Shown here in pieces: positions 8,927 to 51,421 of a stretch of DNA of 64,000 nucleotides. How positions within the stretch are numbered: the stretch's first letter is position 1; each line of letters opens with the position of its first letter. The DNA lies in the NCBI GenBank assembly GCA_013178005.1, contig JABLXL010000014.1, forward strand, positions 1 to 64,000. Reading direction: 5' to 3'. Made by a program: the position numbers and the translations under genes. Under the pieces are notes generated by a model. It searched no databases. It was not told where the DNA came from and worked only from the letters and a program-made list of their open reading frames with translations. Source of the stretch: Actinomycetota bacterium. Its GTDB lineage: Bacteria; Actinomycetota; Geothermincolia; Geothermincolales; RBG-13-55-18.

Positions 8927-8991
8927 TCAGGAATCAAGGAGGGCGGGTTTCGCTTGCTCTTGGAAGATCGCGAGCGCCATGTGTGCAAGAA
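8927..8991 (-). pseudogene. Alternative feoB C-terminal tail (orphan copy)
   Basis: Together with the adjoining repeat copy at 8992-9046, this encodes a second in-frame end for FeoB. The duplicated block leads into LLLGVLAHMALAIF followed by QEQAKPALLDS and a TGA. The intact gene ends LLLGGLVHLALVVF and stop. The two tails are similar as protein but clearly different as DNA, so the orphan is a diverged homologue rather than a fresh duplicate. No start codon or ribosome binding site of its own is visible, so it is probably not translated independently. Confidence 0.7.
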
Positions 8992-9152
8992 CTCCAAGCA
9001 GGAGGGCCAGGATGACCGTGGACCCCGTGATGGCGAGGGTGGCCCTTCCTTGCAGTGGTCTCATCCTAGAAGACAACAAGCGCAAGGTGGACGAGGCCTC
9101 CAAGCAGGAGGGCCAGGATGACCGTGGACCCCGTGATGGCGAGGGTGGCCCT
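8992..9152. repeat. 55-bp direct repeat at feoB 3' end
   Basis: Positions 8992-9046 and 9098-9152 are identical over 55 bases, with a period of 106. The right copy lies inside feoB, 10 codons before its stop. The left copy lies downstream of the stop and runs into the alternative tail. Identity of the block contrasts with strong divergence of the two tails that follow it. Confidence 0.95.
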
Positions 9153-11090
9153 CGTTCCCACTTCCTTCCAGAGAACCGCGAAGGTGGCCACGCAGGGTAT
9201 GTAGACGGCGCAAACCAGGGCGAAGGTGAAGATCTGCCCCCTGGTCATGAACTCCAGCAGGGATGAGCTCTCGGTGATGCCCGGGATGGCTTGGGCGGCC
9301 AGCACCACCAGGAGCGCCAGGGCCAGCTCCTTGCGCAGGAAAGCGAAGATCAGCGCCAGGAGGGCCACGGCGGGTATTCCCAGCCACCCTTCCGCCAGCG
9401 GCTTCAAAGGGGTGGTCAGTCTTACGATCCACCCGCTCTCGTAGAGGAGGCCTAAAAGGAAGCTTCCCGCCACGATGAGCGGAGCCGCTATGTAAAAGAA
9501 ATCCTTCAAGCGCATCCAGGTCTTCTTCAGCACGTTGGCAAGCGAGGGACGCCGGAAGGGAAACATCTCCATTACCAGCCCCGTGGACTCCCCCGACATG
9601 ACCTTGTTGAGAAGGATACCGGCGGCCAGCACCACCGCGAAGAGCAGCGCGAAAAGCCCTAGGGCGGGGAGCACTCCCGCGTAGCGCGACACTCCTCCCA
9701 TGATCACTGCAACCCGGGCGCTGCAAGGGACGAGCACGATGAGCGTGCAGGCGATGATGCGCTCACGCCTCGTCGAGAGCACCCTGGTCCCCATGACCGC
9801 CGGGACGTTGCAGCCCAGGGCGGAGATGAGGGGTATTATCGCCCTCCCGTGCAGGCCCAGGTGGTGCATGACCCTGTCGGTGAGGAAAGCGATGGCGTTG
9901 AGGTAGCCGCTGTCCTCCAGCGCTCCCAGGATGAGGTAGAAGACCAACAGGTAGGGCAGGGCTATCTCCAGCACCGCGCCAAGGCCGTCCAGCGCCCATA
10001 TCAACGACCGCGCCCATACCCCCGTGCCGAGCAACGATTCCAGTCCCCTGCCCGCGGGGCCGCTTACCACGTTCTCCCAGAAACGGGCAAATAGAGAGGC
10101 AAGCTCCCCCCCGCCCCAGAACAAGGCCAGGAAGACCAGCCCCATCACCACCAGCGCCATGGGCAACCCGCTTCTGAAGGAGGTAGCGTATCCCCAGAGC
10201 CTCTCTCCCGCACTGGGGCGCGCATGCTCCCCGCGTTCCTGCACGTTCGCCGCTATGCTCCCGGCGATACCGTGCCGCTCCCTGGCCAGGATGAGGGCGG
10301 CCTTTTCGCCGTGTTCCCTCTCGATTTCGCCCGCTATACTACGGGCATAGGAGACGATCTCAGCGCCCGCCGGGTCCTCATCCAGCGCCCGCAGGAACTC
10401 CTCGTCCTCCTCCAGAAGCAGGATGGAAAGCGCGCGTGGCGAGAGCCCGTAGGGCAATTCTTCCATCTTTCTCTCTATCCGCCTTGCGAGCCTGCGAATT
10501 CGGGACTCGATGTCGGTGGCGTAAGAGAACGGGATGATGGGGTAGTCCTCGCGGCGCTCGGCCAACGCGAGGGCCTGGTGCATGAGCTCATCCAGGCCGT
10601 CCCCTCTTATGCCCACCGTCGGCACCACCGGCACCCCCAGGAACTCCGAGAGGAGCTCCACGTCGGTGTGGGTGCCCGAACGCTCCGCCTGGTCCACGAG
10701 GTTGAGGGCGGTTACCACTGGGCAGCCGAGGTCCAGGAACTGCAGGAGCAGGTACAGGTTGCGGGCAAGGTTGTTGGCGTCCAGGATTACGATGACCACA
10801 TCCGGCTTGCCCTGCAGCACTCCGCGTCTGGCCACCAGCTGGTCCTCGGACACCGCGCCCAGGGCATAGGTTCCGGGCAGGTCCACGATGCCGATGCGGC
10901 GCCCGTCCATCTCCGTCACCGCCAGGTTAAGCTCCACCGTCATGCCTGGATAATTGGCGGTCATCACCCCCATGCCGGTTATACGGTTGAAGATGGTGGA
11001 TTTTCCCACATTGGGGTTACCCGCCAGGGCGAAGACGAACTCCACCCTCTCGCGGATCCTCTCCAGCTGTTCCATGGGCTTTTCTTTCAT
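9066..11090 (-). CDS. feoB: Ferrous iron transporter FeoB
   Basis: A 674-residue Fe(II) transporter. The N-terminal G domain has G1 GNPNVGKST, G3 DLPGTY and G4 NLVD, followed by a helical regulatory domain. The C-terminal half carries two Gate-type membrane blocks with the conserved LGCNVPAVMGTR segment containing the pore Cys. Start ATG at 11090 is preferred: GAGGGAG precedes it and the initiation sequence GAGTGATG looks like an original stop-start overlap with dtxR. It is followed downstream by a duplicated 3' end. Length is normal for FeoB without a C-terminal FeoC-like extension. Iron control by the upstream DtxR-like regulator is likely. Confidence 0.95.
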   Translation of the reverse strand: MKEKPMEQLERIRERVEFVFALAGNPNVGKSTIFNRITGMGVMTANYPGMTVELNLAVTEMDGRRIGIVDLPGTYALGAVSEDQLVARRGVLQGKPDVVIVILDANNLARNLYLLLQFLDLGCPVVTALNLVDQAERSGTHTDVELLSEFLGVPVVPTVGIRGDGLDELMHQALALAERREDYPIIPFSYATDIESRIRRLARRIERKMEELPYGLSPRALSILLLEEDEEFLRALDEDPAGAEIVSYARSIAGEIEREHGEKAALILARERHGIAGSIAANVQERGEHARPSAGERLWGYATSFRSGLPMALVVMGLVFLALFWGGGELASLFARFWENVVSGPAGRGLESLLGTGVWARSLIWALDGLGAVLEIALPYLLVFYLILGALEDSGYLNAIAFLTDRVMHHLGLHGRAIIPLISALGCNVPAVMGTRVLSTRRERIIACTLIVLVPCSARVAVIMGGVSRYAGVLPALGLFALLFAVVLAAGILLNKVMSGESTGLVMEMFPFRRPSLANVLKKTWMRLKDFFYIAAPLIVAGSFLLGLLYESGWIVRLTTPLKPLAEGWLGIPAVALLALIFAFLRKELALALLVVLAAQAIPGITESSSLLEFMTRGQIFTFALVCAVYIPCVATFAVLWKEVGTRATLAITGSTVILALLLGGLVHLALVVF

Positions 11091-11206
11091 CACTCCCTCT
11101 TGCCGCCCTTCCACGAGCAACGCGCCTCGTGGTTCCATGCGTGCTTATTCAGGCTTTGTGCCTATATAGGCTTTTCTTTCATCACTCCCTCTTGCCGCCC
11201 TTCCAC
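11077..11206. repeat. 38-bp direct repeat at dtxR/feoB junction
   Basis: Positions 11077-11114 and 11169-11206 are identical over 38 bases, with a period of 92. Each copy contains the same minus-strand arrangement: the last dtxR codons (WKGGKRE, stop) overlapping an ATG that begins MKEKP. The right copy ends dtxR; the left copy starts feoB. The ancestral junction was probably a single stop-start overlap, now split by 54 bases of intervening DNA (11115-11168). Confidence 0.95.
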
Positions 11207-11985
11207 CCCTTGCCGCGCCGCCCTCGAGACGGCCCCTTCCTGGTCCATATCTTGGAGGCGACCTCCCTGCCCAGAGCGTACTGGGTGTCGCCCACCTTAA
11301 CCAGCAGGGGACCCCCGAAGGGGGCGATGTCCTTGACCTCAATGTCCGTCTCGGGCAGCAACCCCAGGGATGCCAGGTACTGCAGTAGCTGGGGTTCCTC
11401 CTCCTCCACGCGGTCTATGCACCCCTTCTCGTCCACGCAGAAATCGCAGAGGGGCTTTATCTCCTCTTCCTCGATGTGCCCGTTCTCGTCCGGTATGGGG
11501 TAGCCGTGCGGGCAGGTCTCGGGGTTGCCCAGCACCTCCGCCAGCTTCTCCTCCACCTCGGGGGAGAGGACGTGCTCCAGCTTGCAGGCCTCGCGATGGG
11601 CCGACTCCCAGTCCAGGCCCAGCACGTCGGTAAGGAAGCGCTCCGAGAGGCGGTGCCTCCTGACCAGGGTGCGCGCCGCCCTTTGCCCCTTAGCGGTAAG
11701 GGCTATCTCGCGCCTGGCGCGCCCGCGCCCCTTCTCGGGACCCCTGGAGGCGTCCTTCCCCAGCCCCCTCTCGCCGCCCTTTCCCTTGCCCTTGGCCTGG
11801 CCGCCGGCCACATCGGCATAGCGGATATACCCTTCCGCCTCCAGGCGGCGAAGCATGTCCAGCACCGTCGGGGGGGTTACTCCCAGGTGCTCCGCCAAGC
11901 GGGTCGGCGTGAGCGGCCCCGCCTCGCAGCTCAGTTTGAAGAGGGCTTCCAGGTACTCCTCCATCTTCTCGGTGATCATCTTCAT
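11182..11985 (-). CDS. DtxR/MntR-family metal-dependent regulator with FeoA domain
   Basis: A 267-residue metalloregulator. The N-terminal winged helix (EEYLEALFKL ... TRLAEHLGVTPPTVLDMLRRLEAEGYI) is followed by the dimerisation and metal-binding helices (HRLSERFLTDVLGLDWESAHREACKLEHVLSPEVEEKL). A C-terminal FeoA/SH3-like domain starts near GLLPETDIEVKDIAPFGG. An unusual Lys/Gly/Arg-rich insertion of about 30 residues sits where the wing should be, just after YIRYADV. CPHGYPIP is typical of the family. Starts at 11985 (ATG) or 11979 are possible. It heads an operon with feoB and is probably an iron-responsive repressor that also controls itself. Confidence 0.88.
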   Translation of the reverse strand: MKMITEKMEEYLEALFKLSCEAGPLTPTRLAEHLGVTPPTVLDMLRRLEAEGYIRYADVAGGQAKGKGKGGERGLGKDASRGPEKGRGRARREIALTAKGQRAARTLVRRHRLSERFLTDVLGLDWESAHREACKLEHVLSPEVEEKLAEVLGNPETCPHGYPIPDENGHIEEEEIKPLCDFCVDEKGCIDRVEEEEPQLLQYLASLGLLPETDIEVKDIAPFGGPLLVKVGDTQYALGREVASKIWTRKGPSRGRRGKGWKGGKRE

Positions 11986-12365
11986 CACTCCCCTGCTCCC
12001 GGCGCATTTCCTATTTATTAGGGTATTCTAATATTTTCACATTAACATATCTATAACATGGTTATTCATGTATTTACAAGGATTTATTTTATAATCACGC
12101 CCAGATGGTTTCGAGCAATAAACAGGATATGGTCTCCACAGCAATAGAACCCCCTGAGAAAAAAAGGAGCTCTGGTTGTCACCGAATTTGAAATTCAGTT
12201 GACGACAAACAAGGACTCCATTGTAAGCGATCGAGATCAGGGTTTGGCGATGGCGTCAAGGGAGTGTTCTATGGCTTGGGGGGTTTTGGCGCACGTCTAA
12301 TTATTGGAATAAAATAAGGCGGACCTCGTAATTATTTATCGCTTTTCGAACAAAGGAGCCGAAAG
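11986..12365. other. Divergent promoter region of dtxR-feoB and the SDR gene
   Basis: About 380 bases, AT-rich between 12010 and 12100. The left part carries the palindrome listed separately and should hold the dtxR promoter. The right part must hold the SDR promoter; an AT-rich TAAAAT-containing stretch lies near 12310, but no convincing -35 pairs with it. No gene is supported. Confidence 0.45.
12016..12033. promoter_or_regulatory. Candidate DtxR-family operator
   Basis: TATTAG (12016-12021), six bases, then CTAATA (12028-12033): a perfect six-base inverted repeat, resembling the TTAGG/CCTAA half-sites of DtxR/IdeR boxes. It lies about 30 bases upstream of the dtxR start, in the most AT-rich part of the intergenic region, where binding would block transcription of dtxR-feoB. 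Confidence 0.5.
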
Positions 12366-13130
12366 ATGGATTGCCCTTTCTCGCTTGACGGCAAGGTGGC
12401 GGCGGTGAGCGGCGCGGGACGCGGCATCGGCAAGGCCATCGCGCTGGCCCTGGCCCGGGCGGGGGCCGACGTGGCGGTGTTTTCCCGCACCGAGGCGCAG
12501 TTCTCAGCCACCGCGGCGGAGATCGAGGAGCTGGGCTGCGGGGCGCTGGGGATGTGCGTGGACGTGAGCAAGGCGGAGGACGTCGACGCCATGCTCTCCG
12601 CGGTCCTGGAAAAGTTCGGCCGCCTGGACATCATGGTCAACAACGCGGGCCTCAATCCCAGCTACGCCCGTGTTGAGAAAATCCGGGAAGAGGACTACGA
12701 CCTCATCATGGAGGTCAACGTCAAGGGGGTTTTCCTTTGCTCACAGCGGGTGATCCCGGTGATGAAGGAGCAGGGCAAGGGGTGCATCATCAACGTGGCC
12801 TCGGTGGCGGGGCTGAAGGCCCTCTACAAGTGCAGCGCCTACACCGCCAGCAAGGGCGCGGTGGTCCAGCTCACCCGGACCATGGCCCTGGAGCTTGCGC
12901 CCTTCAACATCCGGGTCAACGCCCTATGCCCGGGTTTCGTGACCACGGAGATGACCGAGGGCCTGCTGGGGCACCCCCGCGAGGGCGAACGGGTCCTCTC
13001 CCTCATCCCCATGGGACGGACGGGCGAGCTGGAGGAGATCGCGGCGGCGGCGGTCTTCCTCGCCTCGGACGCCGCCTCCTACGTCACCGGGGCGGTGCTC
13101 GCCGTGGACGGCGGCTGGTCCTGCTGGTAG
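12366..13130 (+). CDS. SDR-family oxidoreductase
   Basis: A 254-residue classical short-chain dehydrogenase. The cofactor motif is GAGRGIG near residues 17-23, NNAG is near residue 91, and the catalytic Ser-Tyr-Lys are in VASVAG and YTASKG, followed by PGFVTTEMTE. The C-terminal VTGAVLAVDGGWS is typical of FabG-like and related enzymes. The substrate cannot be assigned. AAAGGAG six bases before the ATG supports the start. The last 37 bases before the final three codons are repeated downstream. Confidence 0.92.
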   Translation: MDCPFSLDGKVAAVSGAGRGIGKAIALALARAGADVAVFSRTEAQFSATAAEIEELGCGALGMCVDVSKAEDVDAMLSAVLEKFGRLDIMVNNAGLNPSYARVEKIREEDYDLIMEVNVKGVFLCSQRVIPVMKEQGKGCIINVASVAGLKALYKCSAYTASKGAVVQLTRTMALELAPFNIRVNALCPGFVTTEMTEGLLGHPREGERVLSLIPMGRTGELEEIAAAAVFLASDAASYVTGAVLAVDGGWSCW

Positions 13131-13257
13131 GAACTTGTTTCTCGCTGCTTACTTGGTAGATGCTGGGAATGCAGAGGATGTGGCACCATCCGTCACAGGA
13201 GCCACGCCGATGACCGGGGCGGTGCTCGCCGTGGACGGCGGCTGGTCCTATTGGTAA
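13086..13257. repeat. 37-bp direct repeat at SDR gene 3' end
   Basis: Positions 13086-13122 and 13213-13249 are identical over 37 bases. The gene ends WSCW and TAG; the downstream copy ends WSYW and TAA, in the same relative frame and preceded by an in-frame ATG (13210). The orphan copy therefore encodes a variant end of the same protein. No ribosome binding site precedes it. Confidence 0.93.
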
Positions 13258-13265
13258 GGGTTGCT

Positions 13266-14345: not shown

Positions 14346-14533
14346 GACCGTTCCTCCTTTCGCCGCTCATCCGGGAACAGAGGGTTACGAATGTAAATGC
14401 CTGTTCGCTAACAATGATGTATTCCCTCGACGAAAATGGCAAATGGAATTGAGGGTTGATCGACAGACGCATCCGGGTATCGTCACGGGGGCTACCGCAC
14501 AGAAGCCAATTGGCCAGATAGGATAATAGGGGG

Positions 14534-16990: not shown

Positions 16991-17095
16991 GGCATCTCTC
17001 CCCCATCTCGATGGCTCATCCCAGATTTCTACACTGTCTATCGGTATCCCTTGCCCGCCGATTTAACCCTCCTCCCGGAGTTAATGGCGGCGGAA

Positions 17096-18316: not shown

Positions 18317-18426
18317 CTTTCCTCCGCATCCTGGCTCACCGGTTCCCACGACCTTTCGATCGGGTACGGATATCGTATTATGGTGTCTGGGAATCCGCCA
18401 GCGAGGATTTTCGGGAAGGAAACATC

Positions 18427-19248: not shown

Positions 19249-19406
19249 GGTGGTCAAGTCTTCGATCACCCGAGGCAATCAGATGCGGAGGCAGCATGTG
19301 TTATCGTTCGCCCTCCGCCTATCGATCCCCACGCGCTCACGCCAGATGGAGCTCAGCGCATGAGCCAACTGGCAATAAAAGGCAGGGTGCCTTTCAAGAT
19401 CACTTC

Positions 19407-21869: not shown

Positions 21870-22010
21870 ATGGAGACGCCCGAGATCGAGTTCATGCTCT
21901 ACTTGCTCACACGCTACATCAAGACCAACGGCATCGACGCCCAGAAGGTGACGGTGGCGGAGTTGATGGAGAACATCAACGTGAACCTCACGCCCATCGG
22001 CGGAGGATGA
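21870..22010 (+). CDS. 46-residue small protein ending in GGG
   Basis: Unrecognised small acidic protein. It starts METPEIEFMLYLLTRYIKTN, has a helical middle, and ends NLTPIGGG and TGA. GGGGG lies six bases before the ATG, a good ribosome binding site. Codon usage matches neighbouring genes. Just downstream the last nine codons are repeated and extended to NLTPIGGGWHGG. The glycine-rich end invites comparison with processed or conjugated peptides, but there is no neighbouring maturase, and that idea is speculation. It lies between the ADP-ribosylglycohydrolase gene and the CoA-transferase gene. Confidence 0.6.
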   Translation: METPEIEFMLYLLTRYIKTNGIDAQKVTVAELMENINVNLTPIGGG

Positions 22011-22083
22011 TGCCCAGGCCCAATGAAAGACCCCGGCAATGCGGCGTACCCATGCTGAACCTCACGCCCATCGGCGGAGGATG
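21982..22083. repeat. 28-bp direct repeat at the 46-residue gene end
   Basis: Positions 21982-22009 and 22056-22083 are identical over 28 bases. The first copy runs into TGA, the second into codons for WHGG and a TAA at 22094-22096. Confidence 0.93.
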
Positions 22084-24084: not shown

Positions 24085-26106
24085 GTGGAGGAGATGAGGT
24101 CGTTGCTTAAGAAACTGCTCACGCCGCTCAAGGTGCACAACCTGGAACTGAGGAACCGTATCGTGATGACCGCCATGCACCTCAACTTCACCCCCGATGG
24201 AAAGGTGAACGACCGTATCGTCGCCTTCTACGAGGAAAGGGCTCGGGGGGGCACTGGTCTCATCATCGTGGGCGGAAGCATCATCGACGATTACGCCGGC
24301 GCCTACTGGCTGCTGGACATGCGCGACGACTCGTGCATAGAGGGACACTCCATCCTGGCAGACGCCATCAAGCGGCATGGCGCGGCGGCGGCCTGCCAGC
24401 TGTACCATGCTGGTAGATATTCTCATTCTATGACCATGGAAGGAAAACAGGCGGTGGCGCCGTCTCCGGTGCGCTCGCGCTTCACCAACGAGGAGCCGCG
24501 CGAGATGACCCTGGAGGACATCAAGCGCACCATCCAGGCCTACGCGGACGCGGCGTTGAGGGTAAAGAAAGCCGGGTACGACATGGTGGAGGTGCTGGCC
24601 TGCACGGGCTACCTCATCTGCCAGTTCCTGTCGCCGGTCACCAACCTGCGCACGGACGAGTACGGGGGGTCCTGGGAAAACCGCATGCGCTTCGGCCTTG
24701 AGGTGGCGGACGCGGTGCGCGAGGCGGTGGGGCCGGACTTCACCGTGGGATTCCGCATCGCAGGCCACGATTACATCGAGGGGGGCAACACCAACCGGGA
24801 ATGGGCTCTCTTCGCAGCCGAGCTCGAGAAGCACGGCGTCGACCTCATAAACGTCACCGGCGGATGGCACGAGACCAGGGTGCCGCAGTTGCCGATGTCC
24901 GTGCCCCGCGCCGGGCTGGCCTATCTCGCGGCGGGCGTGAAGCAGAGCGTGGGCATTCCTGTCATCGCCTCCAACCGCATCAACGACGTCTTCGTGGCCG
25001 ACGAGATCCTGCGCATGGGAATGGCGGACCTGGTGGCCATGGCGCGCGGGCTCATCGCCGACCCCGAGATAGCCGTCAAAGCGGCGGAGGGAAGGTACGA
25101 GGAGATAACCCATTGCATAGGGTGCAACCAGGGCTGCTTCGACCACGTCTTCTACCTGCAGCCGGTGACCTGCATGCTGAACCCCCGGGCGGGGCGCGAG
25201 CTGGAATACAAGGTGGAACGGGCAAAAACCCAAAAACGCGTGGCGGTGGTGGGGGGAGGTCCTGCCGGCATGAAGGCCGCCCTCACGGCGGCACAGCGAG
25301 GCCACGACGTCACCCTGTTCGAGAAGAGCGACGTGCTGGGTGGCCAGCTCAACCTCGCGGCCGTGCCGCCGGGACGCGAGGAGTTCTGGACCGCGGTGGA
25401 AGACCTGGACGTCCAGCTCGACAACGCGGGGGTCGAGCTCCGGCTGGAGACTGAGGCCACGGCGGAGATGCTCAAGCGGGAGGGTTTCGACGCGGTGGTG
25501 GTTGCCACCGGGGCGCGCCAGGCCGTACCCCCCATCCCGGGCATCGACGGTCCCAACGTGGTCATGGCCTGGGACGTGCTGGAGGGCAAGGAGGACCCCG
25601 AGGGAAAGAACATCGTAATCATCGGGGGCGGGGCAGTGGGGTCGGAGACCGCCATGTACGTGGCCAGCATCGGCACCATCTCCGGGGACACCCTGTTCTA
25701 CCTCTTCATGAACAACGGCGAGGATATCGAGACGTTGCGCGAGCTTTGCAGCCGCGGCATCAAGAAGGTCACGGTCATAGAGATGCTGGACAAGGTATGC
25801 CGCGACGTGGGGATCTCCACACGCTGGACCATCCTGCAGGACATGCGCAACCTGGGGATCGAGATCCGCAGGAAGGCGGTGGCCAAACGCATAGAGGCAG
25901 GAAAGGTCGTCGTGGACGTGGACGGCCGCGAGGAGGAGATCCCGGCGGACACGGTGATCATAGCCGCCGGCTCCTGTCCCGCGGGCGAGCTCTACGAGGA
26001 GCTCAAGGACTCCGGCATGGAGGTCTACCTGGTGGGCGACGCCAGGGAGGCGCGCAAGGCCATCGAGGCCATCCAGGACGGCTACGAGATCGCCTTGAAG
26101 ATCTAG
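24085..26106 (+). CDS. FMN/FAD/4Fe-4S oxidoreductase, 2,4-dienoyl-CoA reductase-like
   Basis: A 673-residue Old Yellow Enzyme-type fusion of the FadH/trimethylamine dehydrogenase architecture. Residues 1-340 form the FMN TIM barrel (LKVHNLELRNRIVMTAMHLN at the start). The cluster motif CIGCNQGC with a fourth Cys in VTCMLNP starts near residue 344. A FAD/NAD(P)H domain follows, with VAVVGGGPAGMKAALTAA and a second dinucleotide motif IVIIGGGAVGSE. Such enzymes reduce activated C=C bonds, often of enoyl-CoAs. GTG 24085 and ATG 24094 are both possible starts. Its 3' end is included in the duplicated junction at 26081-26303. Confidence 0.9.
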   Translation: MEEMRSLLKKLLTPLKVHNLELRNRIVMTAMHLNFTPDGKVNDRIVAFYEERARGGTGLIIVGGSIIDDYAGAYWLLDMRDDSCIEGHSILADAIKRHGAAAACQLYHAGRYSHSMTMEGKQAVAPSPVRSRFTNEEPREMTLEDIKRTIQAYADAALRVKKAGYDMVEVLACTGYLICQFLSPVTNLRTDEYGGSWENRMRFGLEVADAVREAVGPDFTVGFRIAGHDYIEGGNTNREWALFAAELEKHGVDLINVTGGWHETRVPQLPMSVPRAGLAYLAAGVKQSVGIPVIASNRINDVFVADEILRMGMADLVAMARGLIADPEIAVKAAEGRYEEITHCIGCNQGCFDHVFYLQPVTCMLNPRAGRELEYKVERAKTQKRVAVVGGGPAGMKAALTAAQRGHDVTLFEKSDVLGGQLNLAAVPPGREEFWTAVEDLDVQLDNAGVELRLETEATAEMLKREGFDAVVVATGARQAVPPIPGIDGPNVVMAWDVLEGKEDPEGKNIVIIGGGAVGSETAMYVASIGTISGDTLFYLFMNNGEDIETLRELCSRGIKKVTVIEMLDKVCRDVGISTRWTILQDMRNLGIEIRRKAVAKRIEAGKVVVDVDGREEEIPADTVIIAAGSCPAGELYEELKDSGMEVYLVGDAREARKAIEAIQDGYEIALKI

Positions 26107-26326
26107 CCCGGGTATTTGCCGAGGGTCTCTCGCGCGCGGCGCATGCAATTGGAAACAATACCGCTTTCCTACGTGGATGGCTTCTGCATAAAAGCCTCGC
26201 GGGCGCGGCGCACGAGATCGGAGATGATGGCGTCCGTCCTGCTACGAGTCCGCCTTCGAGGTCTAGCCCGGGTATTTGTCGAGGGTCTCGCGGGCGCGGC
26301 GCACGAGATCGGAGATGATGGCGTCC
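26081..26326. repeat. Duplicated convergent gene junction
   Basis: Positions 26081-26143 and 26241-26303 match at 55 of 63 bases. Both contain the end of the rightward reductase gene (GYEIALKI stop versus CYESAFEV stop) and the end of the leftward REC-HisKA gene (RRARETLGKYPG versus RRARETLDKYPG). A second block, 26196-26235, is identical over 40 bases to 26287-26326 inside the REC-HisKA gene and leads into another tail. The intact REC-HisKA gene uses the right-hand copies; the intact reductase uses the left-hand copy. Confidence 0.9.
26170..26235 (-). pseudogene. Alternative tail of the REC-HisKA gene (orphan copy)
   Basis: On the minus strand the 40-base block encodes DAIISDLVRRARE exactly as in the intact gene, then continues AFMQKPST and TAG instead of TLDKYPG and TAG. 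It keeps the reading frame and its own stop. No start site is visible. Confidence 0.7.
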
Positions 26327-27012
26327 ATCTTGAAGCCGTGCTCCACCACCGTTTCGAGCATGGCCTTCTGCTGCTCGTTTAGAGGGCCAGCCTTCTCCTT
26401 TGCCACCGTGCCGGCATAGGAGATGATCACCGTGAGCGGCGTGCGCAGGTCGTGGGACATGACGGATCGGATTCCCTCGAGGGTCGTCAGCGCTTCTTCA
26501 AGGTCGGCCTTGGTCTCCGGTAGGGAGGGTTTTTCTTCGTCCGTCCTGGAATCCCCGTCCTTCTCCGGCGTCTCCAGCCGCTCCCCGGCACCGCCATAGG
26601 CGATGAACTCCCGCACCTGTAAAGGGAACGCATCGGGGTCCACCGGCTTCTTGACAAACCCGTCGAAAAGCGCCAGTACCTCGGACCTTTCCTCCTCCCT
26701 GATGGAGGCGCTGAGTGCCACCACGGGCACACCCTGGAGGCCAGACACCTTTCGGAGGTCCTCCACCACCATACTCCCCGCCCTGCCGGGCATGTGCAGG
26801 TCGAGGAGGATGAGGTCGGGAAGACGCTTGCGGGCAATCTCCGCCGCGGCGTCCGCGTTTCCCGTGGTTATGACCTCAAACCCCTCGGCTTCCAGCAAGC
26901 CGCGCACTATCTCGCGCTCCACGCCGCTGTCGTCGATATAGAGTACGAGTCCGTTCTCCATGCCATCCATGATATCACCGTAAATATCATCGGGCTCGCC
27001 GTCTTCAAGCAT
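26263..27012 (-). CDS. REC-HisKA two-domain protein lacking an ATPase domain
   Basis: A 249-residue signalling protein. A receiver domain covers about residues 20-140, with acidic DD near residue 26, phospho-acceptor Asp in LILLDLHMPG, Thr/Ser in VALSAS and Lys in FVKKPVD. An acidic linker leads to a histidine phosphotransfer (DHp/HisKA) helix pair with the H-box MSHDLRTPLTVIISYAG. The protein then stops: the HATPase_c domain expected of a kinase is missing. It could be a phosphotransfer protein or a truncated hybrid kinase. The start is uncertain; an ATG at 26970 has a better upstream site (GGTGAT) than the one at 27012. Its 3' end has two variant copies downstream. Confidence 0.82.
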   Translation of the reverse strand: MLEDGEPDDIYGDIMDGMENGLVLYIDDSGVEREIVRGLLEAEGFEVITTGNADAAAEIARKRLPDLILLDLHMPGRAGSMVVEDLRKVSGLQGVPVVALSASIREEERSEVLALFDGFVKKPVDPDAFPLQVREFIAYGGAGERLETPEKDGDSRTDEEKPSLPETKADLEEALTTLEGIRSVMSHDLRTPLTVIISYAGTVAKEKAGPLNEQQKAMLETVVEHGFKMDAIISDLVRRARETLDKYPG

Positions 27013-37347: not shown

Positions 37348-37357
37348 CTCCGGCCTC

Positions 37358-38230
37358 CTATGCCAGACCCTTCGCGTACAACAACGGTCGCGGGTCCACC
37401 AGGTGCTTGGCGAACCATTCCTCGGGGCCCTCCATGCCCAGCGCGAGGGCCATCAGCTCGGTGAAGAAGAACACCGGCAGGTCGTGTTCGAGCCGGAAGG
37501 CAAGCCTGCCCTCGCTCTGGCGCATCTCCAGGTTGGCCAGGCACATGGGGCAGGCCACCACGATGCAGTTGGCGTCCGCCTCCTCCGCCGCCTCGAAGAT
37601 ACGGTTCACCAGCTTGACCACCACGTCGGTGCGCGTGAGCGAGAGGCTGCCGCCGCAGCAGTCGGTCTTGTAGGACCACTTTTTCACCTCGGCTCCCATG
37701 GCCGAAAGCAGGTCGTCCATGAGGCGGGGGTTGTCGGGATCGTCGTTTTCGATCATCCCGCGAGGGCGCACCATGAGGCAGCCGTAATAGGACACGGGCT
37801 TGAGCCCCTCCAGGGGGCGTACAACTTTCTCCTTCAGCGCTTCGAGGCCCACTTCCTCGGCGACCACGTCCAGGAGGTGGACGATCCTGCCCTCAAAGCG
37901 GGGGTCGGCGCCCACGATGCGCTCGACCCGCGCCGCCACTGACGGGTCCTCCAGTATCTCGGCCTGGGCTTTCTTCAGGTTGTGGTAGCAAGCCGCGCAC
38001 ACCACCACCAGGTCGCCGCCCCTTTCCCTTGCCTTCGCCAAGTCGCGTCCCGGAAGCGAGAGGGCCAGCAGGTGGTTGGTCATATGCGCCGAGGAGGCGC
38101 CGCAGCAATTCCAATCGGGAAGGGTTTCGAGCCTGAAGCCCAGCTTCTCGGAGACCCTGAGGGCTGACTCTCCGTACTCCTCCGCAGAGGAGAGCTGGGA
38201 ACATCCGGGGTAGTAACTATATGTCTTCAT
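37358..38230 (-). CDS. hdrB: HdrB-like CCG-domain subunit
   Basis: A 290-residue HdrB-like protein with two CCG domains holding noncubane 4Fe-4S clusters. They are seen as PDWNCCGASSAH near residue 39, CAACYHNL near 80, SYYGCLMVRP near 147, and TDCCGGSL plus CPMCLANLEMR further on. In Hdr complexes this subunit reduces the disulfide; in bacteria the substrate is unknown. It starts MKTYSYYPGCS, normal for the family. Its ATG overlaps the stop of a preceding 24-codon frame (ATGA), one of two small frames that resemble its own beginning. Confidence 0.93.
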   Translation of the reverse strand: MKTYSYYPGCSQLSSAEEYGESALRVSEKLGFRLETLPDWNCCGASSAHMTNHLLALSLPGRDLAKARERGGDLVVVCAACYHNLKKAQAEILEDPSVAARVERIVGADPRFEGRIVHLLDVVAEEVGLEALKEKVVRPLEGLKPVSYYGCLMVRPRGMIENDDPDNPRLMDDLLSAMGAEVKKWSYKTDCCGGSLSLTRTDVVVKLVNRIFEAAEEADANCIVVACPMCLANLEMRQSEGRLAFRLEHDLPVFFFTELMALALGMEGPEEWFAKHLVDPRPLLYAKGLA

Positions 38231-38301
38231 GTCTTTCTCCCTCCCGCAAGGAGCTCAAGAAGATCGTCATTCTCGAGGAGGCAATAACCGTGGGCTTTCA
38301 T
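38227..38301 (-). CDS. 24-residue leader ORF coupled to hdrB
   Basis: Reads MKAHGYCLLENDDLLELLAG, then GRKT and TGA. GCGAGGGGGAG precedes the ATG and the stop overlaps the hdrB ATG (ATGA). Its first codons resemble those of hdrB and of the next frame upstream. It may be a translated coupling peptide or a relic of 5' duplication. Confidence 0.45.
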   Translation of the reverse strand: MKAHGYCLLENDDLLELLAGGRKT

Positions 38302-38375
38302 TTCTCGCTCCCCCTCGCAAGAAAATTAAAACGTAAATCTCCCTTCTCGAGGAGGCAGTAACTGTGGGTCCTCAT
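38298..38375 (-). CDS. 25-residue leader ORF coupled to the next leader
   Basis: Reads MRTHSYCLLEKGDLRFNFLA, then RGSEK and TGA. GAGGGAGG precedes the ATG and the stop overlaps the ATG of the 24-codon frame. It shares a YCLLE core and start context with that frame. The chain leads to hdrB. Confidence 0.45.
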   Translation of the reverse strand: MRTHSYCLLEKGDLRFNFLARGSEK

Positions 38376-38455
38376 GTTATCCTCCCTCTTGCCCTTATCC
38401 GGGAGACCAGGCGCCGGGAAATCTCCGGACGACTTTCCTTGAAGGCCTCCCGTTT

Positions 38456-40444: not shown

Positions 40445-40936
40445 CGATCACCTCGCTCCTCACGCCCATCTTCTTGAACATCTTGCTAATGTAATTTACT
40501 CATCTTTACAATACTATATTATTCTTAAACATTTCAACATAAGTTTCACCACCTGCGCGGCGGCGTCTTCCACCGGATCGAACTCGGCGGGTCCCGATCC
40601 GGCGCGTTTTCCTCATCGTCCACCTTGTCAGTGGCGAAAATATCGACCTCTCGAGGAAGGCTATCCGCTTAGCAGCCATCGTCTCGCCGCTTTCCGAATA
40701 CTTCCAGGATCGGCGGGACCGGCGCATTACATTCAAGGAAACCAGCCCTCATGCCGTTCTTATGGGGTAGCCGGGATTCGGAGTGCCGAGGGTGCAAACC
40801 GGCGCGAGGCGGGCCCGGGTAAAGGCGTGGGGATTTGTGCCCGACATCTCCCTCGCGCAGTTGATTTGGAATGGGCGGGGAGCCAAGGCTCCAGGATGCA
40901 AACCGGCGCGAAGCTGAACTGGAGGTATTGCCGGGG
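40445..40936. other. Intergenic region with a short repeat
   Basis: About 490 bases, AT-rich around 40480-40545. A 21-base repeat with two mismatches (ATGCAAACCGGCGCGA core) occurs at 40790-40810 and 40894-40914, the second copy ending 22 bases before the prepilin peptidase start. No gene is seen. Confidence 0.45.
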
Positions 40937-41716
40937 ATGTTCGGAAAGATATATTACACCGTCGTTGTCTTCCTCTTCGGCCTGGTGGTGGGAAGCTTCG
41001 ACAACGTGGCCATCTATCGCATCCCCGAGAAGAAGTCCCTTTGGGCGCCGCGCTCGTTCTGTCCCGCCTGCGGCGTCACCATCGCCTGGTACGACAACAT
41101 ACCCATCTTGAGTTTCTTCATCCTGGGCCGCAGGTGCCGGCATTGCGGCGCTCCCATCTCCTGGCGCTATCCCCTGGTGGAAGCGTTGAGCGGGATCCTT
41201 TTCGCCGCCGTTTTCGCCAGGGTGGGGTTCCAGTGGACAGCCATGCTCCTACCCTACCTGTTCATGGTAACCGTCCTCATCATAGTCTCCGCCATCGACC
41301 TGAAGCTCCAGATCATCCCCAACAAGGTCATGTACCCCGCGATTCCCGCGGCGCTCGCCGCCATGGGCGCGGTATCGCTGGCGAGGGGAGACCACCGAGT
41401 CATCGTCGACAGCCTGGTGGGAGCGGCGGCGGTATCCGTGCCCTGGGGACTCGCGGCCCTCATCTACCCCAGGGGATTCGGGATGGGGGACGCCAAGCTG
41501 GCCGCCTTCACGGGCGCCATCCTGGGCTGGCGCGCCGAGGTGGTGGGTTTCTTCATCGGGGTCGCCTTGGGCGCCTTGGTGGGCATAGCGCTGATGCTGG
41601 CGGGAAAGAAAGGACGGAAGTCGCGCATCCCCTTCGGCCCCTTCCTCGCCGCCGGGGCGTTGATCGCCCTGTTCTGGGGTCAGGCTATATGGGATTTTTA
41701 CGTCGGCTTGATGTGA
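40937..41716 (+). CDS. Prepilin peptidase (A24 family)
   Basis: A 259-residue PilD/ComC-type enzyme that cleaves the prepilin leader and N-methylates the new end. The N-terminal domain has GLVVGSFDNVAIYRIP and two Cys pairs, CPACG and CRHCG, that bind zinc. The catalytic aspartates lie in SAIDLKLQIIPN and GMGDAKLAAF. About seven to eight membrane helices are predicted by eye. ATG at 40937 with GGAGG eleven bases upstream is chosen over an upstream in-frame ATG at 40871. A type IV pilin lies 6 kb away. Confidence 0.93.
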   Translation: MFGKIYYTVVVFLFGLVVGSFDNVAIYRIPEKKSLWAPRSFCPACGVTIAWYDNIPILSFFILGRRCRHCGAPISWRYPLVEALSGILFAAVFARVGFQWTAMLLPYLFMVTVLIIVSAIDLKLQIIPNKVMYPAIPAALAAMGAVSLARGDHRVIVDSLVGAAAVSVPWGLAALIYPRGFGMGDAKLAAFTGAILGWRAEVVGFFIGVALGALVGIALMLAGKKGRKSRIPFGPFLAAGALIALFWGQAIWDFYVGLM

Positions 41717-41737
41717 GGGAATAAAGGTGATGCCGGC

Positions 41738-42016
41738 ATGGAAGATTGGCAGTTCGCGAGGGAGATCACGCTGAAGACGAGGCCGGGCGAGGAGGGGTTG
41801 ATCGCATTCGACTTGCCATAAGGAAGCAGGAGTGTAAACGGCATGGAAGATTGGCAGTTCGCGAGGGAGATCACGCTGAAGACGAGGCCGGGCGAGGAGG
41901 GGTTGACCGCATTCGACTTGCCATAAGGAAGCAGGAGTGTAAACGGCATGGAAGATTGGCAGTTCGCGAGGGAGATCACGCTGAAGACGAGGCCGGGCGA
42001 GGAGGGGTTGATCCTC
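41738..42016. repeat. Tandem triplication of the DUF2889 gene 5' end
   Basis: Units start at 41738, 41843 and 41948, with a period of exactly 105 bases. Units 1 and 2 differ at one base. Each encodes MEDWQFAREITLKTRPGEE, then GL(I/T)AFDLP and TAA. The third matches the first 70 bases and then continues into the full gene. The repeat includes an upstream AGCAGGAG, so each copy carries its own initiation region. The near identity suggests a recent event. Confidence 0.95.
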
Positions 42017-42448
42017 ATCTCCGCCTCGCTCAGGGACCACAGGCTGGGTGCGCCCATCCACTATATCGACGTGGAGGCCGAGGTGGGAATAGCGGACGGG
42101 AAGATCCACGCCATTCGCGGCGAGATGCCCCACATCCCCCACGATGATTGCCGGCTGGCGCTGGCGCGCCTCGACCTCCTGGTGGGAGAGCGCATCGTAC
42201 CGGGCTTTTCCGACCTGGTGCGCGGCGTGGTGGGCTCGGGTGAGGGATGCACTCACCTCTCGGTGCTGGTCATGAACCTGGGCAACGTGAGCGTGCAGGG
42301 CAGGGCCGCCTACGCGCATTGCCTGCTTGGAGAGTCGGAGGCCCGCCGCATGATAGCGAAGCAGGCCGAAGAGCTCGGCCTCCCCGGCAGCTGTATCACC
42401 TGGCGCCTGGACGGCCCTATAATGCGGAGGATGCGGCAAGACCGCTAG
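41948..42448 (+). CDS. DUF2889 protein
   Basis: A 166-residue protein resembling DUF2889. Features are an early beta-rich part (LTLKTRP-like start, YIDVEAEVGIADGKIHAIRGEMPHIPH) and the segment GCTHLSVLVMNLGN, with a conserved-looking Cys-His pair. Function is unknown. Two truncated copies of its first 20-odd codons lie directly upstream. Translation from the third unit gives the full protein; the first two units stop after 27 codons. Confidence 0.75.
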   Translation: MEDWQFAREITLKTRPGEEGLILISASLRDHRLGAPIHYIDVEAEVGIADGKIHAIRGEMPHIPHDDCRLALARLDLLVGERIVPGFSDLVRGVVGSGEGCTHLSVLVMNLGNVSVQGRAAYAHCLLGESEARRMIAKQAEELGLPGSCITWRLDGPIMRRMRQDR

Positions 42449-42643
42449 GCACGTGCAACTTCTTCGTGCAACAGATGACGGGCGGCGCAAGATCAAGGGC
42501 TGTGCTTCAGATAAAATACCTTGGTGTCGATATATGATCTTAATTTTATATTCGCGGCAATTATGAGCCTTGGCTTTCACGGATTCGCTTTACAGCCTAC
42601 CAGGAAGCATATTTGCTGCAAGTGCTTTTCTGAGCAAGTATGG

Positions 42644-47013: not shown

Positions 47014-47323
47014 TCCCTGAGAACCCGATAACCTCTCCTGGTTCCTTCCATACTTTATGGTTGATTTAATTGGTTTCCACGCTGGAATGCCAAGGGGACC
47101 TCGCGCATGAGACAAGAAGGATGGCTTGATCGGCATGCCATTCACTGACCACGTTGGAATTCTCCATGTGCCGGGTAAAAGAAAACCGCAAAGGTTCCTT
47201 GCTGGCGAAAAACGGCAGATAATATAAACCCTCCCGTGTTACCGGCGAAATCAAACGCTTCCTCAACGCCACCACAAGGAAAAGGCGGGAAGCCTAAGCT
47301 CCCCGCCATTCCATGAACCGCGA
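47014..47323. other. Intergenic region, nothing recognised
   Basis: About 310 bases between the convergent YfhO and pilin genes. A terminator is expected, but no hairpin followed by a T-run was found. Short frames have no protein character. Confidence 0.35.
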
Positions 47324-47653
47324 TTACATCGTGCCGTGTCCGTTGGGGCAAGACACCGTCGGCGGTGCGATCGTCGTGCCCGTGAAGCCATAAGCGGTAC
47401 TTCCAGCGGGGCACGTGGGCTCCTTCTCGATGAAGCTCGGGATCAACGCCGCCAAGCTGGTCGGATACAGCTCATGGGTAGAGGCATAAACGTTCGCCGC
47501 CGATTTGATGGTCCTCATGTTTGACTCACAGGTCCGTCTCTGTGCGCTGGAACGAGCGCTGAGGAAAACAGGGACCGCGATACCTACGAGGATACCGATG
47601 ATAAGGATAACGATCATCAACTCGATTAGGGTGAAGCCTTCCTGCCTATGCAT
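47324..47653 (-). CDS. Type IV pilin-like protein
   Basis: A 109-residue prepilin. A short leader ends in Gly before FTLIELMIVILIIGILVGIA, the class III signal with Glu at mature position 5. The small globular domain (AQRRTCESNMRTIKSAANVYASTHELYP) has three Cys and resembles ComGC/GspG-type minor or major pilins. It is processed by the prepilin peptidase. AAAGGAGGTGAAAGT precedes the ATG. No other pilus assembly genes are in the window. Confidence 0.93.
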   Translation of the reverse strand: MHRQEGFTLIELMIVILIIGILVGIAVPVFLSARSSAQRRTCESNMRTIKSAANVYASTHELYPTSLAALIPSFIEKEPTCPAGSTAYGFTGTTIAPPTVSCPNGHGTM

Positions 47654-47927
47654 ACTTTCACCTCCTTTCCTCGGGTATTAATATTCCCCCATTTTCGCCA
47701 TCTCGCCTCTTCGCTCCCACCTCCCTCCTGTTGCAGCCGAAACTTGAGTTCTTAACATGATATTCGGCATTTTTTTCAGCCGGCTTTACCATCTTCCCCC
47801 GTTTTTCCAAGGATAATTTTATCCGAATTTCTTTATAATCTGAATCGATACCCTGATCGGGACGATAAAGCGATTTCCAGCCTACGGTGGTTTTCACCGG
47901 CAGAAGGAAAAAAAGGGGGGGTCAACG
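47654..47927. promoter_or_regulatory. Divergent promoter region with a structured leader candidate
   Basis: AT-rich interval between the pilin and DUF1786 genes. On the plus strand a TATAAT lies at about 47832-47837. The RNA starting just after it contains CCC-TGATC-GGG, then GACGATAAAGCG, GCCTACGG, TGGTTTTCA and CCGGCAG. These resemble parts of the c-di-GMP-I (GEMM) riboswitch, but the conserved 5' half is missing or altered, so the assignment is weak. Confidence 0.28.
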
Positions 47928-49031
47928 GTGACCGGCACGGGAAGGATACTGGCCCTGGATATCGGGGCGGGAACTCAGGACATCCTCCTTTACGACACCG
48001 GGAAAAAGCTCGAGAACTGCGTCAAGCTGGTGCTTCCCAGTCCCGGCGCGCTCATGGCGGAGACGTTACGGAGCCTGGGCGCCGAGAAAACCGCCCAAGG
48101 CCTCTTCGTGGGCGGATACACGGTGGGAGGCGGCGCTTTCTCCCGCGCCATAAAGGAGCATCTTGCCGCCGGAACCAGGGTGTGGATGTCGCGCGAGGCC
48201 GCCTTCTCCCTGCGCAACAACCTCGCCGACGTCAAGGCTATGGGGGTAACGATCCTTGAGGACCCTCCTCCGGGATTCGAGGGCGTATTGGTCCTGTGCG
48301 ACGAGCTGGACCTCGGGCCCCTGCGCGACCTCTTCGCCTCCGTGGGAGAATCCCTGGATGACCTGGATGCCGCCGCCGTGGCGGTGCAGGACCACGGGAT
48401 TTACGAGACCGGGGAGAGCAACCGCAAGACACGGCTCGCCCACATGAGACGACGCCTGGAAGAAGACCCGGACCCCCTTTCCCTTTCCTACCTCGAAGGG
48501 GAGATACCCGCTACCTTTCCACGCATGTTCTCGGCCGCCAGGCGCCTGCGCGATCAGCTCTCATGCGAGAAGATCCTGGTCATGGACACCGCCCCAGCGG
48601 CGGTGGCGGGATGCCTCGCGGACCGTCACGTGGCGGAGCGCGCCGGCGGGAACCTGCTCCTGATCAACGCGGGAAACGGGCATACCCTGGCCTGCGTGAC
48701 CTCAGGCGGCGAAGCGGTGGCGGTGCTTGAACACCACACCAAGAAGCTCGAGCCGCGCTCTTTCGCTGAATACCTCAAGGCCTTCTGCGCCGGCGAGGCC
48801 AGGGACGAAGACGATTTCATGGCCTCAGGGCACGGGCTTTTCTACCTCCAGGACCCGCCCGGCATGGGGGGAATCGACTTGGTCGCGGTGACAGGCCCTA
48901 ATCGCGATTTGCTCGAGGGCACGGACCTCGAGGTGTATTATCCCTCCCCGGGCGGGGACATGATGATGACCGGCCCCCTTGGCCTGGTCAGGGCCGTCCA
49001 GCGCCGCTTCGAGGGCCACATGAACGTCTGA
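47928..49031 (+). CDS. DUF1786 protein
   Basis: A 367-residue protein resembling DUF1786. It begins with an ASKHA-like phosphate-binding strand, ILALDIGAGTQDILLYD, and has a second nucleotide-binding-like segment NLLLINAGNGHTLACV, suggesting an actin/hexokinase-like ATPase fold. DUF1786 proteins are sometimes annotated as pyruvate formate-lyase activating-like, with little support. Soluble. GTG start at 47928 behind GGGGGGG. Confidence 0.75.
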   Translation: MTGTGRILALDIGAGTQDILLYDTGKKLENCVKLVLPSPGALMAETLRSLGAEKTAQGLFVGGYTVGGGAFSRAIKEHLAAGTRVWMSREAAFSLRNNLADVKAMGVTILEDPPPGFEGVLVLCDELDLGPLRDLFASVGESLDDLDAAAVAVQDHGIYETGESNRKTRLAHMRRRLEEDPDPLSLSYLEGEIPATFPRMFSAARRLRDQLSCEKILVMDTAPAAVAGCLADRHVAERAGGNLLLINAGNGHTLACVTSGGEAVAVLEHHTKKLEPRSFAEYLKAFCAGEARDEDDFMASGHGLFYLQDPPGMGGIDLVAVTGPNRDLLEGTDLEVYYPSPGGDMMMTGPLGLVRAVQRRFEGHMNV

Positions 49032-49276
49032 CAGGTGACGCATTCGTGGCTGGTGCCGGCTTCCGTCGGGATGAAACTGCTCAGTCTTAAGACCGCGGAC
49101 ATGTCAGCGGAGCAAGCGAATGATTCGTGTTCCCAGCCCTTCCCTCGCAGCGTCCAAAAGAAAAGCGCGGCTCGCCATCCATGACGGCCGGAGCGGATAA
49201 AGGGACTCCCGGGGAGCGGCCAAGACTGCTCTACTTGAATATATTCCTCGCGCCCAGCGCCGTCTCACGAGGCCGC

Positions 49277-50191
49277 TCAGCCCCGCCGACATCCAGCCCT
49301 GCTTCCCCTCTCCTCCCATCCCACCGCCATAAGGCCCGCCAGGATCATGGCCGTCCCCAGAAGCAGGGCCGCGTTCACCCTTTCGCCCAGGAGCGCCCAT
49401 CCCCAGAAGAGGGCGATAGGAGCGACGAGGTAGATGTAGAAGGCGGCCTGGGAGGCCCCCAGTCCCTCCAGGCCTTTTGAGTAGAGCAGGTAACCCAGAA
49501 GCGTGCATCCCAGGCTAAGGAAGAGCAGCCAGCCCCAGCCCGAGGCGGACAGCGAGGCGATCCCCGACGGAAGGTCACGTGCAAAGGGCCCCAGGGGCAG
49601 AAGAGCAAGGGTACCCGCGAAGATGGCATAGGAGGTGACGAAAAAGGCTCCGTGGGCGTCGGTGAGGGGCTTTAACAACACGGTATATAGCGCCCATGCG
49701 AAGGCCGAGAGCAGCACGAAGAGGATGCCCTGCACCCTGCCCATCCCCAGCTCCTCTCCCGCCCCGAGCACCGTCACCACCGCGACTCCCCCCAGGGCCA
49801 TGACCGTGCCCGCGGCCTTCCAGGGACCCAGGCTCTCATGGAGCATGAACCGAGAGAGCAAGGCCGCGAAAACGGGCGTTACGTTCGCGATCAAGCCGGC
49901 CGTTCCGGCCGGCACCATGGTCTCCCCGTAGGTCACGGCCAGGTGATAGCCGTAGACCGCCGCTATCCCCGCCGCGATGACCAGGATCCATTCCCCGGGG
50001 CTCAACGAAGGCCGCTTTTTCCCTGCTACGAGCACTGCCGGGGCCAGGAAAAGAACGGTGAGGAGGAAACGCGCTATATTCAGGGACAGGAATCCGAGCT
50101 CGTCCAGCAGAACCTTCATGGCGATGAACGCCAGACCCCAGATCCAACACACCAAGAAAAGGTAAAGATGGTAGCGCAGCCTGCCGGACAC
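49277..50191 (-). CDS. EamA/DMT-family transporter
   Basis: About 304 residues with ten hydrophobic helices and two EamA repeats. The first begins YLFLVCWIWGLAFIAMKVLLDELGFL, the second GILFVLLSAFAWALYTVLLKPL. Members export or import metabolites; the substrate is unknown. A GTG at 50191, ten bases after the preceding gene's stop with TGAGG upstream, is the likely start; the frame extends further but would overlap that gene. Confidence 0.85.
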   Translation of the reverse strand: MSGRLRYHLYLFLVCWIWGLAFIAMKVLLDELGFLSLNIARFLLTVLFLAPAVLVAGKKRPSLSPGEWILVIAAGIAAVYGYHLAVTYGETMVPAGTAGLIANVTPVFAALLSRFMLHESLGPWKAAGTVMALGGVAVVTVLGAGEELGMGRVQGILFVLLSAFAWALYTVLLKPLTDAHGAFFVTSYAIFAGTLALLPLGPFARDLPSGIASLSASGWGWLLFLSLGCTLLGYLLYSKGLEGLGASQAAFYIYLVAPIALFWGWALLGERVNAALLLGTAMILAGLMAVGWEERGSRAGCRRG

Positions 50192-50201
50192 CGGCTTGGC
50201 C

Positions 50202-50600
50202 TCAGGACTCGGATCTATCGCGCTCTCCCGCCTTGCCGCGCTCCGCCAGCTTGTAACCGAGCTTGAGCGCCAGGGGATAGGTGGCGAAAACGGCCGCGCA
50301 CAGGGCATGCCCCTTGGGGCTCACGTTTTCGTGGTCGAAATGGAACACCCCCGAGTTGATCATCCAGTCGCGGCCCGATTCGGCCTTGCACATCTCCCAG
50401 ATCCAGCGAGTCCACTCCAGGTTGAAGTAGAGGCTTATGCTGGTGATGTAGAAGACACCGATGGTGGCCGCGTTCAGGAACCTCCTGGCCTTCGCCCTCT
50501 TCTCCGCATCCCTCACCAGCTTTTCGGTTGCCCTGGCGTAGAGGTAACCCAGGGAGACCAGCCACGGCGGGTCGATCAGAAAGCTGTCATAGGGCAACAT
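50202..50600 (-). CDS. Conserved-looking small membrane-associated protein
   Basis: A 132-residue protein starting MLPYDSFLIDPPWLVSLGYL. One probable membrane helix (FLNAATIGVFYITSISLYFN) is followed by a Trp-rich part and the segment SGVFHFDHENVSPKGHALCA. No family recognised. AAGGAGGACGAG before the ATG at 50600 is an excellent ribosome binding site; the frame upstream of it is not needed. It is probably co-transcribed with the downstream EamA transporter. Confidence 0.72.
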   Translation of the reverse strand: MLPYDSFLIDPPWLVSLGYLYARATEKLVRDAEKRAKARRFLNAATIGVFYITSISLYFNLEWTRWIWEMCKAESGRDWMINSGVFHFDHENVSPKGHALCAAVFATYPLALKLGYKLAERGKAGERDRSES

Positions 50601-50913
50601 CTCGTCCTCCTTGCGCTTGGCCTGCCTTACTCCACGGGAGCCTTTTCCCCTCGCCCGAACCGCGAAGGAAAGGGCGCTTGAGCTCCGAATCGCCTGAAAA
50701 CGCTTGCACCGAGCGCGCGACCATACGCAACCATTATCACGCAAGCAAGGCATTTAGTCGACTACGCCGGCGACTATTCGCCATGAAACGCAGTATGAGA
50801 CTCCCTCATCTGGCAGAGTGCAGGAAACGATCTGCTCCTTGTGTTTGCATCGGCCACTGCCCTTGCCCGCGCGTCAAGGGAGGGATTGATGTAGACTATT
50901 ACCAGGTGATGAT

Positions 50914-51324
50914 ATGGATGCGCATCTTCTGCTATGCGACGCGGCCGAGGTGGTGGGCAACCGGGTTTTCGTCCTGGGAGGAGGATGGACCGGGTGCAGC
51001 GCCCGCATACCGGGCATGGCCGTGGTGGTGCTCCTGGACGTGCCCTGGGACCAGGCAAACCGCCGCCATGATATGGACCTGGCCTTGCTGGACGAGGACG
51101 GCAACCCCGTGAGCGCCGGAAACCCTCCTCGCGAGGTGCGCGTCCAGGGCAGCTTCGAGGTGGGGAGGCCGGCGGGCCATCCGGCGGGTATGCCTCTCCG
51201 CTTCATGCAGGCCGTGAACTTTCACCGCCTCCCCCTGGAGCCCGCCCGGCGCTACGGCTGGGAGCTGCGCTTGAACGGCGAGCCCACGGCCAGGGCGTCG
51301 TTCTTCACCCTACGGGACAAATGA
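50914..51324 (+). CDS. DUF6941-like protein
   Basis: A 136-residue beta-rich protein (LLLCDAAEVVGNRVFVLGGG at the start, MDLALLDEDGNPV in the middle, RYGWELRLNGEP near the end). The pattern resembles DUF6941 proteins, small soluble proteins of unknown function; this match is from memory of the motif and moderate in confidence. AGGTGAT six bases before the ATG. Its last codons and the sequence just after the stop are repeated about 74 bases downstream. Confidence 0.6.
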   Translation: MDAHLLLCDAAEVVGNRVFVLGGGWTGCSARIPGMAVVVLLDVPWDQANRRHDMDLALLDEDGNPVSAGNPPREVRVQGSFEVGRPAGHPAGMPLRFMQAVNFHRLPLEPARRYGWELRLNGEPTARASFFTLRDK

Positions 51325-51421
51325 GGCCGCGTGATCCGGCTGGGAACGCCCCGAAAATATCACGGACTACCCGGCGTTCCCAGTCGAGGGACAAATAAGG
51401 CCGCGTGATCCGGCTGGGAAC
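51314..51421. repeat. 34-bp direct repeat at the DUF6941-like gene end
   Basis: Positions 51314-51347 and 51388-51421 match at 33 of 34 bases. The one difference turns the stop TGA into TAA, so both copies end RDK and stop. Between them GGGAACGCC and GGCGTTCCC form a nine-base perfect hairpin stem without a T-run. Confidence 0.92.

Follow-up and report, generated by a model that had tools for sequence, protein, structure and literature searches.

Scattered repeat-insert-repeat units with CRISPR-like spacing in a Geothermincolia genome: candidates for off-target spacer integration

Integration of spacers outside the arrays of clustered regularly interspaced short palindromic repeats (CRISPR) was reportedly described by Nivala, Shipman and Church in 2018 (Nat. 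Microbiol.), with a few putative natural cases said to occur in Yersinia pestis and Sulfolobus islandicus. When Cas1-Cas2 is overexpressed in Escherichia coli, spacers are integrated outside arrays and a target of repeat length is duplicated, according to two reports (PMC11788318, PMC9456107). In vitro, a type I-G Cas4/1-Cas2 enzyme can integrate unprocessed prespacers and shows signs of integration at nonspecific locations (PMC10274657). Here we describe local direct repeats in an actinomycetotal genome that resemble the products of such non-canonical integration: a short fragment lies in the chromosome outside an array, and a target of repeat length is duplicated around it. The repeats came to notice in a stretch of 64,000 nucleotides (nt), positions 1 to 64,000 of contig JABLXL010000014.1, which we call the window. 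An earlier sequence-only reading had reported that the ends of genes are recurrently duplicated there beside the intact genes.

The window is contig C6 of a metagenome-assembled genome (MAG) of 3.61 Mb in 98 contigs, 97% complete (G000). The host genus is one that we take to inhabit hot springs. Of the named genomes in the collection, Candidatus Solincola daggyaiensis (JACVJD01; G001) is the nearest relative of G000, and a third species of the same genus (G002) serves for sister-species comparisons. We scanned 2.0 Mb of G000 in stretches, calling genes with a simple codon model and listing local direct repeats, and scanned 850 kb of the GC-matched replicon pSymB (62% GC) identically as a control. 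A dispersed repeat family containing GGGGTCGTATCTTGAATTTTTCCTCGC was excluded from the pair counts. This family, with the complement of that sequence, is found in G000 at C38:3638, C38:6651, C1:333, C9:12580 and other places.

The scan of G000 yielded 118 non-coding two-copy local repeats. The copies are spaced 68-83 nt apart in 47 of them; no pair is spaced 64-67 nt and none 84-87 nt. Flanking spacings predict about 3.8 pairs in the 68-83 interval (Poisson p about 1e-34), which was picked after the histogram had been viewed, although a peak this large survives any choice of bins. The peak is sharp at 72-79 nt, with the mode at 74-76. The control held no non-coding two-copy pairs within 400 nt, and the same scan does detect the coding repeats of pSymB. 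The repeats exceed chance, and the sequence-only reading was right that a recurrent, non-random process is at work, one that extends over the genome. Extrapolated to 3.6 Mb, 47 pairs in 2.0 Mb correspond to the order of 85 units per genome. The same geometry recurs in three separately assembled genomes of the genus: G002 has four pairs spaced 71-76 nt in the 0.8 Mb scanned, and 19.5 kb of S. daggyaiensis contain one 74-nt pair and one three-copy site spaced 74 and 68.

What do these units look like? Most pairs, aligned at their own spacing, match over about 36 nt with abrupt edges, beyond which there is no similarity. In the typical unit, some 110 nt in total, an unrelated insert of about 38-39 nt separates copy 1 from copy 2, each of about 36 nt. 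Because what lies between the copies bears no relation to the repeat, most pairs are read as insertions with target duplication. In pairs at least 90% identical (n=26) the repeats are most often 36 nt long and are spaced 75.0 nt apart on average. Overall, too, the mode is 36, and most repeats measure 33-38 nt; they are thus of CRISPR-repeat length, the arrays of the genus and family having repeats of 36-37. The insert (spacing minus 36) averages about 39 nt. Peak-class pairs therefore have the geometry of a CRISPR repeat-spacer-repeat unit, with a different 'repeat' at every site. In a canonical array, by contrast, the repeat does not differ from site to site, whereas here it does and nearly always encloses one insert. 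Identity between copies is graded, from about 80 to 100%, which indicates that the events accumulated over a long time.

The inserts carry further hints. Their ends show an inverted T...A preference (30 versus 12, p = 0.008), a weak symmetry of the kind expected from two-ended integration. Of 36 inserts, 13 begin with TT or end with AA, against 2-9 at other offsets; the pattern outnumbers its reverse by 14 to 5 (p = 0.06), and inserts bearing it were not seen to be longer. Retention of a protospacer-adjacent motif is suggestive only. At one site the source of the insert can be named. The 36-nt insert at G002 C1:4411 matches G002:C9:109476 at 95%, with related stretches in G000 and other genomes; the G000 counterpart lies within a short open frame reading like an RCKP-rubredoxin-like protein. 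A fragment of another gene has therefore been put between the target copies there. Insert GC is 55%, close to that of intergenic DNA (58%). The idea that the inserts are native intergenic DNA is contradicted at G002 C1:4411, and could still hold at a locus near 22 kb of the window. Exact matches to three of the inserts were sought in IMG/VR, and none was found.

Four loci of the window fit the peak class. Gene names are those of the sequence-only reading; only feoB is confirmed, by homologues.

21982-22009 and 22056-22083, plus strand: end of a 46-codon gene; 28 nt identical, insert 22010-22055, spacing 74.
51314-51347 and 51388-51421, plus strand: across the stop of a DUF6941-like gene that ends at 51324; 33 of 34 nt identical, insert 51348-51387, spacing 74.
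38263-38318 and 38337-38392, minus strand: upstream of hdrB (gene 37358-38230); degenerate, 73% identical with 23 of 25 in a core from 38270, spacing 74.
54478-54502 and 54551-54575, unstranded: intergenic pair; 88% identical, similarity going on when shifted by one base; about 48 nt of insert, spacing 73.

The last of these is an eighth pair, added here to the seven repeats named earlier, all of which are present at about the places reported, as is that at hdrB. In G002 the end of the 46-codon gene is single-copy, and the intergenic region upstream of hdrB has no matching second copy. At the DUF6941-like gene, the insert and the last part of the first target copy together make a perfect inverted repeat of 11 bp at 51337-51397 (CTGGGAACGCC...GGCGTTCCCAG).

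Where the units lie relative to genes was the core of the earlier claim. Wholly intergenic pairs make up 25 of the 49 in the spacing peak, and, repeat-rich genes aside, none lies inside a gene. Of the peak pairs that are not contained in a gene, 45% extend over the 3' end of one, where placement predicts 12% (p about 4e-8); a single pair overlaps a 5' end alone, where 4.8 are predicted. The intergenic pairs lend no support to an unrecognised process that swaps or targets gene ends. An insertion that spans a stop codon does not disrupt the gene, and drift is slower in a coding copy than in a non-coding one, which keeps 3'-end pairs recognisable for longer. The excess probably reflects mostly survival and this slower drift rather than gene-end swapping, with a residual preference possible; hairpins do not account for it. 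That duplications survive mainly where genes stay unbroken, as had been supposed, agrees with these counts.

The ruler-like geometry points to CRISPR-type integration which, with the sharp spacing and the unrelated inserts, goes beyond what the sequence-only reading had noted. Which system might supply the ruler? There are two copies of Cas1 in G000 and two in G002. A cas4-cas1 fusion locus of G000 has an array with 36-nt repeats spaced 70-73 nt; in G002 one Cas1 is encoded in a fusion-size open frame beside a 36-nt array spaced 72-75, and there is a second Cas1. Other members of the family have 37-nt arrays spaced 72-79. We call the fusion loci type I-G-like, a label that rests on the Cas4-Cas1 fusion and repeat length and is not a full subtype classification. 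The units resemble the type I-G-like arrays of the genus in repeat (about 36) and spacing (about 72-76) and, more loosely, in spacer (about 36-39). Spacers measure 34-37 nt in the G000 array of this kind, 36-39 in G002 and 37-42 in genome G013.

Type I-C was rejected as the agent: the G000 locus has 33-nt repeats spaced 65-69, below the peak. A long type I-C array occupies G000 C34:85884-90204, adjoining cas4, cas1 and cas2. Capture of fragments at staggered breaks by non-homologous end joining was rejected as well, since Ku is absent from G000, G001 and G002; it is present in four other family members. A separate, smaller non-coding group is spaced 60-62 nt (G000 C13:47305, C21:3087, C4:3471 and C34:132923; G002 C5:34651, C5:25066 and C8:34301). 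Its repeats are 23-32 nt long and partly palindromic, and some occur in three copies; the geometry is type I-E-like, and no type I-E module was identified.

We consider it rather likely that the 47 pairs of the dominant class in 2.0 Mb arose by off-target spacer integration through an integrase of the Cas1-Cas2 type. The enzyme would probably be the type I-G-like Cas4/1-Cas2, with its repeat ruler of 36-37 nt. Having captured a DNA fragment of roughly 36-42 nt, it would attack the chromosome at sites other than the CRISPR array, staggering the attack by about 36 nt, and the target would be duplicated when the gaps were filled, to give target-insert-target. Insertions within genes would be purged, while those that are intergenic or span a 3' end would spare the gene, persist and slowly decay. 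That Cas1-Cas2 is the agent, which module acts and why it would be so lax are points we infer. Unlike the integration driven by overexpression in E. coli, the events here belong to a natural genome, with about 47 across 2.0 Mb, are of graded age and have no obvious leader-like or repeat-like target.

Several observations weigh against off-target integration. No Cas1 match was found in G001, though such sites are present there. The mean pair spacing of 75 is about 3 nt longer than the 70-73 of G000's own type I-G-like array, and some sharp-edged pairs have 28 or 34 nt instead of 36. No likeness of the targets to an array leader or repeat was noticed, no systematic leader comparison having been made. 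The hairpin potential of the targets is average (z = 0.04), and integration directed to stem-loops was rejected on this ground. For the remaining inserts no source was found, in searches of relatives that scored part of the candidates only. Finally, at the 22-kb locus (21982-22083) the sequence after copy 1 (TGATG), not that after copy 2, resembles the continuation in G002; either flank may be the native one there.

The other loci of the window fall outside the peak.

11074-11114 and 11166-11206, minus strand: dtxR-feoB junction; 98% identical with 38 nt exact, insert 11115-11165, spacing 92.
9064-9152 (gene copy) and 8958-9046 (orphan copy), minus strand: feoB 3' end; identical over 50 nt, beyond which about 39 nt are homologous but diverged; spacing 106.
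13086-13129 and 13213-13256, plus strand: 3' end of an SDR gene; 42 of 44 nt identical, insert of 83 nt, spacing 127.
26081-26332, unstranded: composite at the ends of the convergent REC gene (24094-26106, plus strand) and DUF2889 gene (26263-27012, minus strand).

These four loci are probably of mixed origins. The dtxR-feoB junction is a single uninterrupted copy in G002, 92 nt shorter than in the window. In G001 the stretch is present in three copies spaced 74 and 68, like an array, so either two species were each hit here or an event in an ancestor was homogenised afterwards. The REC/DUF2889 region combines 26081-26153/26241-26313 (84%, spacing 160) with 26196-26241/26287-26332 (96%, spacing 91) and records at least two events. 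At feoB, the gene copy has a tail of the same length as in both sister species, and in G002 feoB ends once only. The orphan tail, compared with those of G001 and G002 as the sequence-only reading had proposed, is close to neither; it may be an old copy with a converted front half or a fragment of a foreign allele. That reading had also stressed copies that stay in frame to their own stop and end in different tails. Frame and stop follow automatically from a near-exact copy and are no separate evidence, and a truly diverged alternative tail is clear only at feoB.

About 40 pairs in the G000 scan are spaced 84-165 nt, the range in which these four loci lie. Several of the wider-spaced pairs are members of multi-copy tandem sets and some are simple tandem duplications; the band probably has several sources, namely integrations stacked on one another, short tandem duplications of the ordinary kind and gene conversion acting locally. 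Two tandem arrangements were seen besides. A 105-nt unit is repeated head to tail at 41703-42017 of the window, in three copies that are 82-85% identical, between genes that end at 41716 and start at 41948. Tandem units of about 118 nt stand at two contig ends, G000 C11:61019-61337 and C13:56958-57110, which probably join.

Could another activity have made the peak class? An unrecognised non-CRISPR integrase or transposase-like activity might insert fragments of about 38 nt with a target duplication of about 36 nt. The sites in G001, where Cas1 is not detectable, and a spacing slightly longer than that of G000's type I-G-like array would suit it. Its ruler, however, coincides with that of the family's CRISPR arrays, and we know of no transposase family that combines such long target duplications with such short, ever-different cargo; we regard this explanation as unlikely. 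Template switching during replication or repair, copying about 36 nt to a place 38 nt off and leaving native DNA between the copies, seems to us improbable. It would fit the G002-like sequence after copy 1 at 22 kb and the near-intergenic GC of the inserts, but not the insert at G002 C1:4411, which is a piece of another gene, nor the dtxR-feoB site that is uninterrupted in G002, and it gives no evident explanation of the sharp peak in spacing.

Short direct duplications near gene ends would likewise arise from short tandem duplication, from homology-facilitated illegitimate recombination involving diverged relatives, or from gene conversion, if gene ends alone tolerated such changes. For the peak class we think these processes very improbable: they predict no fixed spacing, hence no peak, and no unrelated insert between sharp repeats. 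Simple tandem duplication, one of the causes suggested earlier, was rejected for that class, since no second occurrence of the insert follows copy 2. Such processes fit a minority of loci, best feoB (50 identical nt followed by a diverged in-frame tail), REC/DUF2889 and part of the 84-165 band, where several pairs sit in multi-copy tandem sets; recombination with diverged relatives, also proposed before, is possible for a few loci such as feoB only. Misassembly of mixed strains, to which MAG data and the start of contigs C5 and C7 within such a repeat might point, is scarcely credible given units of about 110 nt, a length that typical short reads exceed, graded copy divergence, one geometry in three separate genomes and zero peak pairs inside genes other than repeat-rich ones.

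If the units are indeed off-target integrations, what would they mean for the lineage? It is an even question whether such integration is a chronic, genome-wide mutational process that has left on the order of 85 neo-CRISPR units in each genome, including sites with two inserts like dtxR-feoB in G001. Cas1-Cas2 would then be, in nature, both a mutator and a seed of new arrays. Where gene ends are found duplicated in such genomes, gene swapping is not a necessary conclusion. Off-target integration is known mainly from overexpression; were our reading true, adaptation enzymes would reshape chromosomes in nature, and how often stray spacers arise, which targets they hit and what becomes of them could be measured from sequence alone. 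It would also offer a way, open to testing, in which new CRISPR arrays could be born.

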